A DNA stretch of 24,812 bases from a virus. The notes below the pieces were generated by a model. It did not search any database. It was not told where the DNA came from and was given only the letters and a program-made list of their open reading frames with translations. The stretch is taken from IMG/VR virus record IMGVR_UViG_3300005095_000151, positions 1 to 24,812 of that record. One strand, given 5' to 3'. The translations under genes were made by a program, and so were the position numbers. Position 1 is the stretch's first letter. The number at the start of each line of letters is the position of its first letter. Positions 5,907 to 22,079 of the stretch are shown piece by piece.

Positions 5907-6383
5907 GGTGTCATTCTCCTTTGTGTGTTGGTTTTTAGCCGCAATGGGCGGCAGTTCATTAAAGAACGGTGTATTGGTGAGTGCTACAGAGTGCAACATC
6001 CACCCGACATCCTCTCCGCTTTTGGGATCGGTGGCGTGTGCCACAAGGGTAGGGGAGAGGTATCGGTACTCTCCGGACTTTATTTGGGCTTTTGCCTCTT
6101 TGGTCCATTCGATAAGCGCAAAGAGCTTTTCATCTTCGACCTTGAGCCCATCGGGGTGGCGGATCCACCCGGATGCGGGGGCTTTTTCGCCATAGAGCGA
6201 CTGGTGTTCGTAGTCGACCACCACATCGAGCCCCATGGCCTTGAAGTTCTTGACGATCTTCTCAAGATCAAGTGCATCGAGTGAGAACTTTCCTGCGCTG
6301 TGCCCCTCCCAGGAACCTACCATGGCGATCTGTTGCCACTTCTTACTGTTTTTGTCAATACGACATGCGATCACGCCGTCCAT
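5598..6383 (-). CDS. I: Prohead protease/scaffold precursor, Mu gpI-like
   Basis: The product is 261 residues. The first ~150 form the Mu I-type protease region: VGSWEGHSAGKFSLDALDL, VVVDYEHQSL, APASGWI, SGEYRYLSPTLV and the typical HSVALTNTPFF segment. After a linker comes a helical coiled-coil region (LEALQAENNTLKEQLQQTQQ, TLKEVQKV) and a charged end, as in scaffolds. In Mu the protease matures the capsid and the C-terminal part is also made separately as scaffold Z. The same internal start exists here and is listed on its own. The ATG at 6383 overlaps the upstream gene by 13 bp. Decoration and capsid genes follow directly. Confidence 0.9.
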   Translation of the reverse strand: MDGVIACRIDKNSKKWQQIAMVGSWEGHSAGKFSLDALDLEKIVKNFKAMGLDVVVDYEHQSLYGEKAPASGWIRHPDGLKVEDEKLFALIEWTKEAKAQIKSGEYRYLSPTLVAHATDPKSGEDVGWMLHSVALTNTPFFNELPPIAAKNQHTKENDTMSKEALEALQAENNTLKEQLQQTQQTLKEVQKVAATSKVKDAIAAKKLHPEQEQWACDYAIKDPEGFDAYLQAAKPAADVPPPNQYPATNKPDAEPMAMDRI

Positions 6384-6947: not shown

Positions 6948-6971
6948 GCGGCAAACAACAAGGAGTTGCCC

Positions 6972-7388
6972 ATGGCACTGATGGATTTTAGCTTAGGTGA
7001 TGTCGGCGGTGTCTTCACCTCTATAAGAGAGGCGATCACCGGCGAGAAGATCGCAGACCCGAACGAGCAGGCAAAGCTAATGCTGGCACTCGACGAGATC
7101 GAGGCGAAACTCAAGATGGCACAGATGGATGTGAACAGAACCGAAGCACAGCACAAGAGCATCTTTGTGGCAGGCTGGCGACCGTTCATTGGGTGGATCA
7201 GCGGTAGCGCATTGGCGTATAACTACATTGTGCAACCGCTGCTGTTCGTGCTTTTGAGTGCCAATGGCATCAGTGTTGAGATGCCTGTACTTGACATTGG
7301 TACGCTGATGATGCTGATGGGCGGCATGCTTGGGTTTGGTGCGTTTAGGACTTTCGAGAAAGTCAAAGGCGTGGAGCATGGATACTAA
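6972..7388 (+). CDS. Holin-like membrane protein, 3TM GTA-holin type
   Basis: The product is 138 residues from the ATG at 6972, chosen because AAGGAG (6960-6965) precedes it by 6 nt; a TTG at 6966 lies too close to that site. The N-terminal half is a charged helix (NEQAKLMLALDEIEAKLKMA) followed by AGWRPFIGWISGSALAYNYI, IVQPLLFVLL and a C-terminal MMLMGGMLGFGAFRTFEK. The WRPFIGW...A.NY signature and the order of a soluble helix then three membrane segments are typical of the GTA_holin_3TM family. These insert in the inner membrane and help release phage at lysis. It is the first gene of the rightward operon. Confidence 0.8.
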   Translation: MALMDFSLGDVGGVFTSIREAITGEKIADPNEQAKLMLALDEIEAKLKMAQMDVNRTEAQHKSIFVAGWRPFIGWISGSALAYNYIVQPLLFVLLSANGISVEMPVLDIGTLMMLMGGMLGFGAFRTFEKVKGVEHGY

Positions 7389-7410
7389 AGAGAGAGGAGA
7401 GAAGACGACA

Positions 7411-7743
7411 ATGCCACAGAACGATCCAAGCAACTACTCTCTGCTCACCTATGCGTGGGTACTCATCTTATCTGTATGGGGTGGGATAACACACTACATC
7501 AAAAAGGTCAAATCTGGCGCGCTGCAACGCTTTAGCATCAGCGAGCTTGTGGGTGACATATTCATCTCTGGATTTATTGGGGTAATGACATTCTACCTGT
7601 GTGAGTATGCCCACTTCGACAAGATGCTTACCGCTTTTCTTGTAGGCATCAGTTCGCACATGGGTACTAGAGGATTAATGATGCTTGAGGAGGTCGCCGC
7701 CAAGAGACTTGGTGTCGATGTGCCTAAGGATGGGGAGAAGTAA
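7411..7743 (+). CDS. Second holin-like protein, LydA/holin superfamily III type
   Basis: The product is 110 residues from the ATG at 7411 (P1 LydA has 109). An upstream ATG at 7378, inside the end of the preceding gene, would add 11 residues and has AAGG 8 nt before it, so the start is not settled. The sequence YAWVLILSVWGGITHYIKK forms the first membrane helix, then ISELVGDIFISGFIGVMTFY and FDKMLTAFLVGISSHMGTRG. The FS.(S).LVGD.F.S...G...F pattern and the GISSHMGTRG ending fit LydA-type holins. Two adjacent holin-like genes suggest a holin/antiholin pair. No endolysin gene is seen nearby. Confidence 0.75.
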   Translation: MPQNDPSNYSLLTYAWVLILSVWGGITHYIKKVKSGALQRFSISELVGDIFISGFIGVMTFYLCEYAHFDKMLTAFLVGISSHMGTRGLMMLEEVAAKRLGVDVPKDGEK

Positions 7744-10202: not shown

Positions 10203-10721
10203 ATGGCAGTTGGAAGCAGCATCATTACAGCAGATGGCATAAACGCACTGGCAAACGCAAGCGCAACTGGGACAAGTGTAAAACCAAAGTATTTTAAGTT
10301 CAGCGAGCAGGAGCTTGTGCTTGATCCAAATCTAAGTGCAGACGATATAGTTGGATGGCGCACACAAGAGATAAGTCTATACCAAAAAGTAGATGACAGG
10401 AGTGTCGAGTTTGTGTGTGATGTACAGCCAGATGAGGCAACCGCCTATACGCGACTATGTGGTCTGTTCCTAGATGATGGCACCCTTTTCATGGTGGCAA
10501 AACCACCATTCCCATTCCCACCACAGTTAAGACAGACATTCAAAATACAGATGATCTATGATGGGATAGATGAGATATTGAACTTCCAGTATCTGCCATT
10601 TAGCGAAACAGAACAGAGCTTGGCACTGCTAAACACGCAAGCGACGCTAGGAGAGCAGATACTCAGAAATGCCCTCGATATCGGCCTTATGAAAAACACA
10701 AATCACAACACAGGAGAATAG
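10203..10721 (+). CDS. Tail-collar fibre N-terminal-type protein (P2 gpH N-terminus-like)
   Basis: The product is 172 residues and resembles only the N-terminal collar domain of P2-type tail fibres (Phage tail-collar fibre family): ITADGINALANASATGTSVK, KYFKFSEQELVLDPNLSADD, then TQEISLYQKVDDRSVEFVCD and LCGLFLDDGTLFMVAKPPFP. It ends with a helical tail containing FSETEQSLALLN. In P2 this domain begins a long fibre. Here it is a separate short gene placed directly before the DGR target. It may therefore be the baseplate adaptor to which the variable tip protein attaches, which is inference. GGAGG precedes the ATG. Confidence 0.75.
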   Translation: MAVGSSIITADGINALANASATGTSVKPKYFKFSEQELVLDPNLSADDIVGWRTQEISLYQKVDDRSVEFVCDVQPDEATAYTRLCGLFLDDGTLFMVAKPPFPFPPQLRQTFKIQMIYDGIDEILNFQYLPFSETEQSLALLNTQATLGEQILRNALDIGLMKNTNHNTGE

Positions 10722-10722
10722 C

Positions 10723-11967
10723 ATGGATCTTAACGGAATCAATGAAAATGTAAATAGACTTGTTCAAAACATTGCTGAGCAGAATAGAAAGGCACAAGAG
10801 ATATTCTTTGACCCAACACCAAAGAGTGTCGAACTGCAGCAGCTCGATGAAAATGGTATATTGCAGACAATTATGCTGCCAAACAGAGCAAAGATCCTCT
10901 CTGATGTATCACTCACAACATTTGACAAGCAAGATAACACATCACCGGCATTCAAAAAACTTACACCCTACAGCATTGCCATTAAAGCTGGACTTCGCGT
11001 CAAAGTAGAAGGGGAGACCGTCACACTTGTAAGTGACTATACGCTTGACATCAACACACACCTCGACACCGGTACAAAAGTGCCTGGTACTGACTATTTT
11101 ATTTATGTCAATACAGATGGCACTTTTTACTTGAGTGCGAACAGGAATCTTACATCTGGAAGAGTGATAGGCGGTTTTCACTACAGCTTAACACCTGAAG
11201 ATGAAGCAGCCACAGGAAATAAGACAGAAGGAGACATGGAGGCGATCAGAGGCATCAATATGTACTCTATGTGGGATCTGAAATTCAGGCCAACATGTGA
11301 TCCACGCGGGATGGTATATATCCTTGGAAAATGGTACGACATCTATCTGCATGACAGCAACTATGGCCTAAGAAAATACTCTGCACCAACATCGCACACA
11401 GGTGCCAAGATAGCAGGTGGCGCTACAACGAACAGCAGACAGATCCCAAAAATACCACTTGAATTCGGAGGTGATGGAGCTATTGATTATGGATCGTATA
11501 CTTGGTTCCAGGCGTGCGAAGTTGCAGGTGCAGCTGGCAAACACCTACTCTCCTATGAGGAGTTCCAAAAAATTGCGTATGGTGTCACTGAGGGCATCGG
11601 TGCTGTAGCACAAAATGCGGCATACGACACAGATGACAACGAGGGCAGAGTTACACATTACCCAGAGTTCTTGTCGAAGTGGGGCATAGAGCAGGCAACC
11701 GGCAATGAGTGGATATGGGGAAGAGAGGTCTCTGGGAATAGAGATGAAGGATCCACATCATGGGATTGGAGAGACAAAACAGGTGGAAGAGGGATGATAT
11801 ATGCACTACACGATAATCATATTACTGCACCGATTTTTGGTGCGCACAGAGATTATAGCGATGACGGGAAGGCTGGTTCCCGCTGTTCGACTTGGCACGA
11901 CTATGTTTGGGATTCGGATTGGAGCATCGGGTCTCGCGCCGCGTGTGACCACCTGAATCTTGCGTAA
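10723..11967 (+). CDS. DGR target: tail-fibre tip protein with C-terminal C-type-lectin (FGE/Mtd-like) variable domain
   Basis: The product is 414 residues. The N-terminal ~40 residues are helical and likely attach to the tail. A middle beta-rich part follows (LRVKVEGETVTLVSDYTLDI; FYLSANRNLTSGRVIGGFHY). From about residue 190 it has the pattern of DGR-diversified C-type-lectin folds: INMYSMWDLKFRPTCDPRGM, TWFQACEVAGAAGKHLLSYE, EFQKIAYG, QATGNEWIWGREVSG and a final GSRCSTWHDYVWDSDW then IGSRAACD. The last ~30 residues correspond to the template repeat, and residues 390, 392, 393, 397, 399 and 401 are the altered positions. The protein would bind the host receptor. AGGAG precedes the ATG at 10723. 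The C-terminal domain call is strong and the tail-tip role is inferred from position after the collar gene. Confidence 0.9.
   Translation: MDLNGINENVNRLVQNIAEQNRKAQEIFFDPTPKSVELQQLDENGILQTIMLPNRAKILSDVSLTTFDKQDNTSPAFKKLTPYSIAIKAGLRVKVEGETVTLVSDYTLDINTHLDTGTKVPGTDYFIYVNTDGTFYLSANRNLTSGRVIGGFHYSLTPEDEAATGNKTEGDMEAIRGINMYSMWDLKFRPTCDPRGMVYILGKWYDIYLHDSNYGLRKYSAPTSHTGAKIAGGATTNSRQIPKIPLEFGGDGAIDYGSYTWFQACEVAGAAGKHLLSYEEFQKIAYGVTEGIGAVAQNAAYDTDDNEGRVTHYPEFLSKWGIEQATGNEWIWGREVSGNRDEGSTSWDWRDKTGGRGMIYALHDNHITAPIFGAHRDYSDDGKAGSRCSTWHDYVWDSDWSIGSRAACDHLNLA
11874..11948 (+). repeat. DGR variable repeat (VR)
   Basis: This is a 75-bp copy of the template repeat at 12352-12426, offset 478 bp. It is identical at 69 positions. 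The six differences are at 11891 and 11896 (template A, here C) and 11899, 11911, 11917 and 11924 (template A, here G). No template C, G or T differs. The last ~24 bp from CATCGGGTCTCG onward are identical and GC-rich, as expected for the IMH region that primes homing. Only six codons and the stop follow the VR. Confidence 0.96.
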
Positions 11968-11977
11968 CGAACGAAAG
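11959..11977 (+). other. Candidate hairpin just downstream of VR
   Basis: CTTGCGT (11959-11965) can pair with ACGAAAG (11971-11977) around a five-base loop, with one internal G-A mismatch. It starts 11 bp after the VR end. In Bordetella phage BPP-1 a short hairpin a few bases after VR promotes homing. This one is at a similar place but weaker, so I rate it as possible only. It spans the stop codon of the target gene. Confidence 0.3.
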
Positions 11978-11992
11978 TGAGTGGAGGAATCG

Positions 11993-12334
11993 ATGAACAA
12001 CCTTATCATCATTGAGAAATATGAAGATTTTATCAATTACATATATCCTGTATTGCAAAACATTCAACGCAGGCATGGAGTCATAAAAGAGAAAATCATA
12101 CAGACAATATTTTCTCAAGTTGAACTCTTTTATAAAGCGATAAAGTCAAACCACATAAGCAAGCTATATGAGGCAGATGGAAACTTGGCAACGATAAGGT
12201 TTTACTTAAGATTTCTCTCCGACAAGAACAGAAAACTCATATCACAGAAACAGCACCAGGTTGCAAGTATTAAACTTGCAGAAGTTGGAAAAATACTTCA
12301 TAGCTGGATAACAAAACAGACAAAGGGTAGATAA
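11993..12334 (+). CDS. avd: Avd, DGR accessory variability determinant
   Basis: The product is 113 residues from the ATG at 11993, which follows GGAGGA (11983-11988) by 4 nt; an in-frame GTG at 11981 overlaps that ribosome site and is unlikely. The sequence is all-helical and basic: EKYEDFINYIYPVLQNIQRR, IKEKIIQTIFSQVELFYKAI, ADGNLATIRFYLRFLSDKNR and IKLAEVGKILHSWITK. The four-helix pattern, the LRFLSD segment and the GKILHSW ending fit the Avd family, a pentameric barrel that binds the reverse transcriptase and the template RNA. It lies between target and template repeat, as in BPP-1 (Avd 128 residues). The coding is distinctly AT-rich. Confidence 0.9.
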   Translation: MNNLIIIEKYEDFINYIYPVLQNIQRRHGVIKEKIIQTIFSQVELFYKAIKSNHISKLYEADGNLATIRFYLRFLSDKNRKLISQKQHQVASIKLAEVGKILHSWITKQTKGR

Positions 12335-12595
12335 TTGAAATGCGTAGTCTATGGTTCCCGCTGTTCGAATTGGAACAACTATGTTTGGAATTCGAATTGG
12401 AACATCGGGTCTCGCGCCGCGTGTGAGGACAATCACTTTGGATATATGCACTCACTGCAAGTCACGGCTGCAGTGGTGCGACCAGATAATGTGGTCAGAT
12501 TATCTATCCTGCTTAGGCGAATACATAGCTTGGTTTGTAAAATTGTGAGTAGTGGAATATCGAAAGCAAAAGACAACATACTAAAGGATCCTAGT
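12335..12595 (+). ncRNA. DGR template RNA: template repeat plus structured spacer
   Basis: The interval from the avd stop to the proposed reverse transcriptase start holds the template repeat and a 169-base spacer (12427-12595). In BPP-1 the equivalent TR-spacer RNA is bound by RT and Avd, and the spacer is needed for priming. The spacer here has a perfect 7-bp stem, CACTGCA (12453-12459) with TGCAGTG (12469-12475). After it come two overlapping, mutually exclusive stems: GACCA (12480-12484) with TGGTC (12492-12496), or AGATAAT (12484-12490) with ATTATCT (12499-12505). The stems are seen directly. The transcript ends and function are inferred. Confidence 0.7.
12352..12426 (+). repeat. DGR template repeat (TR)
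   Basis: This is the invariant 75-bp donor copy. Read in the target's frame it has six AAY codons (starting at 12368, 12374, 12377, 12389, 12395 and 12401) that place Asn between fixed Trp, Tyr, Ser and Gly residues. These codons contain 12 of its 15 adenines. AAY codons cannot be turned into stops by changing the two adenines, a known design feature of DGR templates. All six differ from VR by one base each. Confidence 0.96.
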
Positions 12596-13594
12596 TTGGG
12601 AAAAAAATATAAAAACCTATTCAACAGAACTACTGACATCAACAACCTAAGAGATGCATACTGCAAAACTGTACGAGGTGGGAACAGATACACATATGGA
12701 CACCTTCACTTTAAGGAGAATATAGAGGCAAATATTATGCTACTTAAAAATCGTGTCGAATCCGGGTCGTATAGTCCTGGAGACTATAGAGAGTTTAAGG
12801 TATACGAACCAAAAGAGAGAATCATTAAAGCGTTGCCTTTTAGGGACAGAGTTCTTCAGCATGCAATATACAACATTATTGAACCAATTTTTGAGCCAAT
12901 ATTCTACAGCTGTTCGTATGCATGCAGAAAAAACAAAGGAACGCACAAAGGCGTAAAAGATGTACAGGCGACAATGAGACGACTGCACGACTCAGGGACA
13001 GTCTATTACTTAAAAATGGACTTTAGTAAATACTTTCATTCTATAGACACAACAGTGCTTTTTATGGAGATCAAAAAAAAGATAACAGACAATAGAGTTG
13101 TTGCACTCATGAAGATGTTCACAAACGAGCACAAAGGAATTCCGATCGGGAATCTTTTATCTCAGTTATATGCAAATATATATGGTCACATATTTGATAG
13201 GTTTGTAAAGACAAAACTTAAAGCAAAACACTACTTTAGGTACATGGATGACACAGTCATACTATCAAACAACAGAGATGAGCTTAAGAGATGGCAACAG
13301 ATCATCCATAGATTCATTGGAATATATATGAAACTTAAATTTAGCAAGTGGCACATCAGCAGCCTGTCGAAACCGCTAAACTTTCTTGGCTACAGAATAA
13401 CAGAAAGGTATAAACTTATACGCAAAGACAGTGTTATAAGGGCAAAAAGAAAAATAAAAACATATACAAGATCAAAAGATGAAAATAGACTAAAAATGTT
13501 CCTTGCAAGCTGGCTTGGGCATGTCAAATATGCAAACAGTTATAACCTTATCCATTTCATTCAAAAGGAGATCAAACATGGAAACAGTCAATAA
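12596..13594 (+). CDS. DGR reverse transcriptase (Brt-like)
   Basis: The product is 332 residues starting at the TTG at 12596, which has AAGGA (12584-12588) 7 nt upstream. The protein then begins MGKKYKNLF, like the start of BPP-1 Brt, which is 328 residues. The open frame extends back through the template repeat to 12335, but that part is not RT-like. Motifs in order are YREFKVYEPKERIIKALPFR, VLQHAIYNII, SYACRKNKGTHKGV, KMDFSKYFHSID (catalytic Asp about 142), GIPIGNLLSQ (about 181-190; the DGR-type IGxxxSQ in place of QGxxxSP) and YMDD (216-219). The thumb has LNFLGYRIT and FLASWLGHVKYAN. All catalytic residues are present, so it looks active. It copies TR RNA with errors at adenines. Confidence 0.95.
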   Translation: MGKKYKNLFNRTTDINNLRDAYCKTVRGGNRYTYGHLHFKENIEANIMLLKNRVESGSYSPGDYREFKVYEPKERIIKALPFRDRVLQHAIYNIIEPIFEPIFYSCSYACRKNKGTHKGVKDVQATMRRLHDSGTVYYLKMDFSKYFHSIDTTVLFMEIKKKITDNRVVALMKMFTNEHKGIPIGNLLSQLYANIYGHIFDRFVKTKLKAKHYFRYMDDTVILSNNRDELKRWQQIIHRFIGIYMKLKFSKWHISSLSKPLNFLGYRITERYKLIRKDSVIRAKRKIKTYTRSKDENRLKMFLASWLGHVKYANSYNLIHFIQKEIKHGNSQ

Positions 13595-20519: not shown

Positions 20520-22079
20520 ATGGCACTTAATGACCTCTTAATAGACGAATTGGAAATGACACACCTCTTCACGCTTGACAATAAAACAGTGGAGGAGGAT
20601 GGTGTTACTACTAATTATCCAACAAGAATAAACAACGATGATGGTTCTAAGTTTGTATGGGACGACAACCCTTGTTGTGAAGGTTTTACTTATGCACCAA
20701 AAACCAATGATAGCACCAGCTATTCTAGTCGCTCAAATGGTGTCATCTTCGATAACTCTGATGACATCAATAAGAAGGCTAGAGCTAACTATGGTGATGT
20801 CGGTAAGACTATCGGTATGTGGACAAGAGTAAATCAAGTATTGACACCAAGCTGTATTCTGGATGAGGGGGCACAGGTTAACAACTTTGCATTCTTTGTA
20901 GGATTGGGGCAATCCTTTACTTGGCAGGCTGCTGATGATGGTCAACCATTTCTTATCGCACAAAGTAAACTAAAAGCACAAGCAGGTAGGAACTATCTTC
21001 TAACAGGTACTTGGGAGTATCAGCGCAATGGGTACAATGCTATTGACTTTTTTGTCAATGGTGTATTACAGGAGACGGTACAGCTTACTGGTACTGATAA
21101 GTTTCCCGACCATGGCGGGGATATTAATATTGGGAACACAGATGACGACCTCAAAAGCTATAACGAGGGTGTCATCAAATCTGCCATTCGTGAGAAGTGG
21201 GCAAACCTCTTCTTTATTAAAAACCTTGAGATTTGGGATGAAACGATCATTCGTGAAATCTTTGAGAGAACTACTTTTGCAGAGGTTACAATAGAGGCTG
21301 ATACAGTTAAGAATCAGCAGGCTGCGTTGGACAACTTAATCGGAAACTCATACTTTGATGTGAATTGTGCTATCAGAATTGTTCAGGCAACAGATACAAC
21401 AAACTATACACTGCTTATGGATGATATTACATTCAAGAGAGTTGATGAATTAAGAGATATTCATATTCAATTCCTTGGTGAGGGTGAACTTCATATAGAG
21501 AACTGCAATGGATCTAACGCATACGAACTCTCTACACCAAAAGAGATTGAAAGGGTGAGTGATACATTGGTTGGCGGTGGATCACTCACAAAAACAGACA
21601 ACTCTGTACGACTCAAAGATGATAGTGACTATAACAACCACATCATCGATGGTAACTTGTGGATTGACTGCGACAGTGATGTGACAATCGATATGGAGAA
21701 TGTTAATGTTGCAGGTAAGGTGTATAACAGAAATAACGATGCTACTGTAACCATTAGAGCAACAGCATGTGAGTTGGAAGCAGATATCGCTGGTAGTGGT
21801 AACGGGCAGGTAAACATTGAGATCGTAGGTGAGCTTACAATTACGGGATTGGTTGACGGTACAGAGGTTAGACTGTACGATGTAAACATGAATGAACTCT
21901 TTGGTATCGAGGAGAGTAGCGGCAATGTTGTGTGTGATTATGTAGGGATGCACACAGATGCACTACTTGTGGCGTATCATGTGCTATACCACCCGATAAG
22001 AGTCAAGCTCAACCTGAACGGTGATAAGGCATCTATACCGATGTCACAGGCCAAAGACACGACATACTACAACCCATAA
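20520..22079 (+). CDS. Large appendage-type protein with an N-terminal lectin-like (LamG-type) domain
   Basis: The product is 519 residues, first after the tail set. GGAGG lies before the ATG. Residues ~45-245 look like a concanavalin/LamG jelly-roll: GFTYAPKTNDSTSYSSRSNG, VGKTIGMWTRVNQ, GRNYLLTGTWEYQRNGYNAI, DFFVNGVLQETVQL and NLFFIKNLEIWDETI. After a helix (FERTTFAEVTIEADTVKNQQ) the C-terminal part is a repetitive beta pattern with many Asp/Asn (DGNLWIDCDSDVTIDMENVN, NNDATVTIRATACELEADIA), suggesting a beta-solenoid rod. It could be a tail appendage that binds glycans. Domain calls are by eye and moderate. Confidence 0.55.
   Translation: MALNDLLIDELEMTHLFTLDNKTVEEDGVTTNYPTRINNDDGSKFVWDDNPCCEGFTYAPKTNDSTSYSSRSNGVIFDNSDDINKKARANYGDVGKTIGMWTRVNQVLTPSCILDEGAQVNNFAFFVGLGQSFTWQAADDGQPFLIAQSKLKAQAGRNYLLTGTWEYQRNGYNAIDFFVNGVLQETVQLTGTDKFPDHGGDINIGNTDDDLKSYNEGVIKSAIREKWANLFFIKNLEIWDETIIREIFERTTFAEVTIEADTVKNQQAALDNLIGNSYFDVNCAIRIVQATDTTNYTLLMDDITFKRVDELRDIHIQFLGEGELHIENCNGSNAYELSTPKEIERVSDTLVGGGSLTKTDNSVRLKDDSDYNNHIIDGNLWIDCDSDVTIDMENVNVAGKVYNRNNDATVTIRATACELEADIAGSGNGQVNIEIVGELTITGLVDGTEVRLYDVNMNELFGIEESSGNVVCDYVGMHTDALLVAYHVLYHPIRVKLNLNGDKASIPMSQAKDTTYYNP

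Follow-up and report, generated by a model that had tools for sequence, protein, structure and literature searches.

The stretch of DNA analysed here, referred to as the window, is a 24,812-base IMG/VR fragment (IMGVR_UViG_3300005095_000151, positions 1 to 24,812) and almost certainly carries a complete diversity-generating retroelement (DGR) of the BPP-1 type in a phage tail module. An earlier note on this DNA had described a complete DGR with its parts in order, and indeed every part was found, in the order given there, between positions 10723 and 13594. The DGR itself is ordinary and complete and the type of phage is known; the part that specialists might not have seen is a variant of the target-site hairpin. 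The element adds a well-populated BPP-1-type branch, several members of which come from MAGs of Sulfurimonas, Arcobacteraceae and Helicobacteraceae, and which can be compared with one well-studied case. Also, the covarying hairpin with its non-canonical pairs represents a natural experiment on the function of DGR target hairpins.

Parts of the retroelement

The cassette is located between a collar-fibre gene and the DUF1353 and sheath genes. The following features were assigned:

10203..10721, plus strand: protein with collar-fibre N-terminal domain, directly upstream of the target (Pfam Phage_tail_fib, E 9e-4, below cut-off)
10723..11967, plus strand: DGR target, Mtd homologue of 414 aa (PF21916 mtd_2nd, E 1e-15; PHROG 11262, tail protein)
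11874..11948, plus strand: VR, 75 nt, 92% identity to TR
11942..11962, plus strand: IMH-like initiation site cgtgtgaccacctgaatcttg over the VR 3′ end (18 of 21 bases match BPP-1 tctgtgaccacctgattcttg)
11967..11982, plus strand: target-site hairpin ACGAAC-GAAA-GTGAGT, which contains tandem G.A/A.G mismatches and overlaps the stop codon of mtd
11993..12334, plus strand: avd (PF22296 bAvd, E 4.6e-36; PHROG Avd, E 2.3e-24; 45% to BPP-1 Avd)
12352..12426, plus strand: TR, 75 nt, with 15 adenines and 8 variable codons, forming a repeat pair with VR
12449..12577, plus strand: DGR RNA spacer structure between TR and RT (RF03022 Phage_DGR, cmscan 95.2 bits)
12596..13594, plus strand: DGR RT (RVT_1, E 1.1e-21; PHROG 1423, E 3e-108; 44.6% to Brt)

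The best PDB match of the target is Mtd (phmmer E 2.8e-45, residues 61-413), and its variable C-type-lectin region is located at the C-terminus, with VR near the gene end. The target had been said to follow the tail-collar fibre gene, which agrees with the position of the gene at 10203..10721; its product matches homologues on two related loci, L085 (37%) and L083 (80%), each of which lies beside its own mtd. The earliest start codon of avd is GTG 11981 (ORF 11981-12334); ATG 11993, which is preceded by a GGAGG ribosome site, is the likelier start.

For the RNA between TR and RT, the full RF03022 model (1-127) was matched by cmscan with a score well above the gathering threshold of 50 bits (95.2 bits, compared with 104.7 bits for BPP-1), and the model also matches the relatives. 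The RT had been described as DGR-type with intact catalytic motifs, and both IGNLLSQ and YMDD are present. Its open frame comprises 419 aa from TTG 12335 and passes through TR; when aligned with BPP-1 Brt, the gene has its probable start at TTG 12596. A translated TR-RT fusion was considered and rejected: in most relatives, the RT frame is closed in the stretch separating TR from RT, and therefore the open frame through TR looks accidental.

Placing the RT in a tree had been proposed as a check, and thereby it was found within the DGR clade that includes Bordetella BPP-1. The RT of the window pairs with that of L003 (97/90) in a 25-row clade (100/99), which takes in three loci from Campylobacterota MAGs and joins the BPP-1 group at 100/100, together comprising 33 rows. 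Several DGR-like RTs of the Sulfurimonas family (L132-L135, L137) group with Pseudomonas phage Bise instead, and four remoter RT matches (L139-L141, L144), presumably of other RT classes, lie outside the clade of the window.

The likeness to the BPP-1 DGR comprises the gene order mtd-avd-TR-RT, the proteins (34% for the target, 45% each for Avd and RT), the Rfam RNA, the position of the hairpin and its GAAA loop, the asparagine register of TR, and the IMH. The two differ in the repeat, which is annotated with 134 nt including the IMH in BPP-1 and has 75 nt in the window, and in the hairpin 3′ of VR, which in BPP-1 (GCGGGGCC-GAAA-GGCCCCGC) is formed by eight Watson-Crick GC pairs, whereas the stem of the window contains the tandem G.A. 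Further differences are the setting within a contractile P2-type tail and the Campylobacterota-type relatives. The loci L003, L083, L004-L021 and L084-L086 share the Mtd-avd-TR-RT cassette and the hairpin type of the window where these parts are present, with RTs of the same clade.

Repeats and relatives

Along their 75 positions, VR and TR have six mismatches, each of them at a TR adenine (hypergeometric p = 2.5e-5, with adenine at 15 of the 75 TR bases). As VR is changed at 6 of the 15 TR adenines and nowhere else, neither repeat appears to have drifted since the last retrohoming. These adenine-only changes fit at least one past retrohoming event in the window, and it is from this one TR/VR comparison that we infer activity of the window's own copy. 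When the whole window was compared with TR, VR was the sole match apart from TR itself, and no second VR was found.

With its eight variable codons, fewer than most relatives have, TR has a capacity of about 1.8e8 protein variants. Its length is 75-85 nt in the window, L003 and L083, 92-95 nt in L019 and L021, and 105-121 nt in most relatives. The short TR is without the 5′ end, which in BPP-1 holds the first group of variable codons, and the six remaining asparagine codons are in BPP-1 register (N-W-N-N-x-x-x-N-S-N-x-N-I-G).

As relatives, 31 IMG/VR loci (L003-L033) with an RT identity of at least 46% were used, together with three loci from Campylobacterota MAGs (Helicobacteraceae, Sulfurimonas and Arcobacteraceae; RT 63-66%), a further Sulfurimonas locus (L096; RT 60%), and L083, which carries no RT and has an Mtd with 73% to that of the window. 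A search of IMG/VR for the exact 3′ end of VR/TR yielded no close siblings. Repeat pairs are present in nearly every close locus having enough flanking sequence. In 21 close relatives, 229 of 233 TR/VR differences are located at TR adenines, a proportion somewhat favoured by the repeat-pair finder, which kept pairs with at least 70% of the differences at one base.

A comparison of VR between relatives, also proposed in the earlier note, was made with three of these loci. Over the cassette, L025 is almost the same as L028, and L027 differs by about 4%. Outside the repeats, L028 and L025 differ by 0.23%; their VRs differ at 6 of 106 sites, all of them TR adenines, and their TRs are identical. 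Between L028 and L027, 14 VR sites differ, again exclusively at TR adenines and with no difference in TR. This adenine-only change of VR with a fixed TR, seen not in this phage but in relatives with an RT identity of about 47%, argues that such elements are active.

Several loci showed further features. In L018, a second Mtd-like target with its own VR (12657-12775) is located about 7 kb from the first; compared with the same TR, this VR has 15 differences, ten at TR adenines and five elsewhere, and it is followed by its own hairpin, GTGAGCGAAAGCGAAC. L031 contains a 125-nt repeat pair (10976-11100 and 12035-12159) with 21 differences, 20 of them at T on one side, in minus-strand sense, which is possibly a second DGR on that contig. 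In the DGR of the Sulfurimonas MAG locus L096 (9213-10995), the RT is broken by stops and the hairpin misfits the motif, so that this DGR is probably decaying. L010 lacks most of avd and the TR in the interval from the VR hairpin to the RT (5953-6001), due to a deletion or an assembly error.

The target-site hairpin

Published hairpins of phage DGRs have GC-rich stems of 7-10 bp and GRNA loops (PMC3240598). Position and loop of the hairpin in the window are as published, whereas its stem, consisting of six positions with two G.A mismatches, is off the published stem rule. With some reservation, we consider it probable that the branch of the window and a few neighbours possess a distinct hairpin, NNGANN-GNAA-NNGANN, which would replace the long GC-rich stem described for other phage DGRs and would contribute recognition or stability in retrohoming.

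The 16-nt element could be aligned without gaps over 25 loci, with an invariant GA at positions 3-4, and again at 13-14, and an invariant G.AA in the loop. The other four pairs are paired in 98% of the cells, a value partly built in, since 24 of the 25 rows were chosen by a scan demanding that these pairs be complementary or G-T. Not built into the scan are the two-sided pair changes (19 double changes in the 25 loci), the constant position 17-22 nt downstream of VR throughout the relatives, and the rarity in shuffles. The tandem G.A had first caught the eye in the sequences downstream of VR, and the search for it was written afterwards. The pairing measures and the covariation score were reached by 0 of 500 shuffles, which is not a strict probability as the rows share ancestry, and slid controls were far lower. 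In shuffled downstream regions, the full motif occurred in 1 of 6,200 trials. Scanning of whole loci (311 kb) located the motif just after VR in most of them; elsewhere it turned up only twice, once at the second VR of L018. Of 96 loci with a repeat pair, 28 had the motif after VR under a looser rule, and with the exception of L117 these 28 are closely related to the window or to BPP-1. In the hairpin of L085, one outer pair is broken.

DNA folding energies of the hairpins were indistinct from those of shuffles and standard parameters predict no stable stem; therefore, the hairpin claim is based on covariation and not on energy. DNA mini-hairpins that combine a GNA or GNNA loop with two or more G-C pairs are known for their unusual stability, d(GCGAAAGC) being an example (PMC4686876). 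The loop-proximal core is GC-GNAA-GC in many members, similar to this example, and AC-GAAA-GT in the window. For BPP-1, shortening or AT-enrichment of the stem resulted in less homing (PMC3240598), so that the efficiency of the window's element, with its weak stem, could be lower. A literature search combining DGR, hairpin, G-A and tandem found no paper, and the hairpin variant is possibly undescribed.

Proposed function, phage type and host

According to the proposed mechanism, RT and Avd would bind the TR-spacer RNA and generate cDNA with random bases opposite the TR adenines. This cDNA would replace VR at the IMH, aided by the hairpin just downstream, which would give the Mtd-like tip of the tail fibre a new lectin surface and thereby change or broaden receptor binding. 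By analogy, the biochemistry is expected to be as in BPP-1 and the target is presumed to have a receptor-binding role. The mechanism of cDNA retrohoming is still incompletely understood, as stated in a reconstitution study of 2026 (PMC12875486). The view that the system is a BPP-1-like tail-tip diversifier, put forward in the earlier note, is supported by the part-by-part homology, the adenine-only differences, the Rfam match, the RT tree, and the VR-only variation in relatives.

Three other readings were weighed against this one. Use of the variable protein for a purpose other than adsorption, for example for display on the surface of the lysogenic cell, is quite improbable. DGR targets in bacteria are diverse and the receptor-binding role proposed here is an analogy, but over most of its length the target is a homologue of the protein that mediates attachment in BPP-1, Mtd, and its gene comes after the collar-fibre gene and before the sheath operon. 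It is also unlikely that the element is a decayed remnant, with recognisable parts but no longer diversifying the phage. Such decay would be in line with the TR of 75 nt compared with 105-121 nt in most relatives, with the low predicted stability of the hairpin, and with the precedent of L096 and its split RT. Against it stand the intact frames of RT, Avd and target, the presence of the catalytic motifs, the RNA score nearly reaching that of BPP-1, the covariation of the hairpin across relatives, and VR differing from TR at adenines exclusively.

The RVT_1 domain, which by itself cannot separate RT classes, was the only domain found in the RT by the Pfam search. Nevertheless, we regard it as extremely improbable that the RT belongs to an element of another class (group II intron, retron, abortive infection) and that the repeat lies next to it by chance, since this search found no maturase domain, since PHROG, Avd, Rfam Phage_DGR, and the RT tree all indicate a DGR, and since the repeat mismatches are confined to adenines.

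The phage carrying this BPP-1-type DGR is a tailed phage and its host most likely belongs to the Campylobacterota, judged from sequence similarities: relatives of the RT occur in MAGs of Sulfurimonas, Arcobacteraceae and Helicobacteraceae, the terminase shows 56% to one in a Sulfurimonas MAG, and the sheath 47% to that of Sulfurimonas phage SNW-1. The head block on the minus strand (portal, terminase, DUF1804, gp36, protease) is of the Mu type according to Pfam (Portal_Mu PF06074, gp36 PF07030, Mu-like protease I PF10123), the label Mu-like being based on head genes in a 24.8-kb fragment without the early region. The capsid matches Phage_cap_E, so that calling it lambda-type was fair. The tail block on the plus strand is of the P2 type (gpV, gp25-like, gpJ, gpI, tube FII, chaperone, GpU, GpD), with the gene order gpV-W-J-I, sheath, tape measure.

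The earlier note had regarded this combination of a Mu-like head opposite a P2-type tail with a DGR as seemingly unusual, which found no support. Helicobacter pullorum prophage BK070133 and Campylobacter phage CAM-P21 share the opposed blocks in similar order, although the RT, Avd and Mtd of the window's DGR have no match in them, and the hankyphage, a transposable Mu-like phage of Bacteroides, carries a published tail-fibre DGR (PMC6199706, PMC12135933). The hankyphage belongs to another host phylum and was likened to the window by description. Phage SNW-1 has a related P2-type tail (sheath 47%, gpJ 44%), and in its genome collar fibre and DUF1353 flank the slot that holds the DGR in the window. 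It differs by having an ordinary tail-collar fibre and a tyrosine recombinase, by head and packaging genes of a type other than the window's Mu type, and by showing no DGR match. A fibre truncation relative to SNW-1 was considered and dropped, as the two collar fibres resemble each other weakly (E 0.002) and the gene that follows the RT shows no match to the DUF4376 gene of SNW-1. A literature search for DGRs in Sulfurimonas or Campylobacterota or their phages found no relevant paper; in one paper obtained thereby, the DGRs sit in Gammaproteobacteria instead.

Two further observations were made in the window. The tail-module protein encoded at 20520-22079 contains a concanavalin-like domain (Laminin_G_3), has no PHROG match, and is possibly a second adhesin. 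Where head and tail blocks meet (6966-7743), two adjacent holin-like genes are located (GTA_holin_3TM and Phage_holin_3_3).
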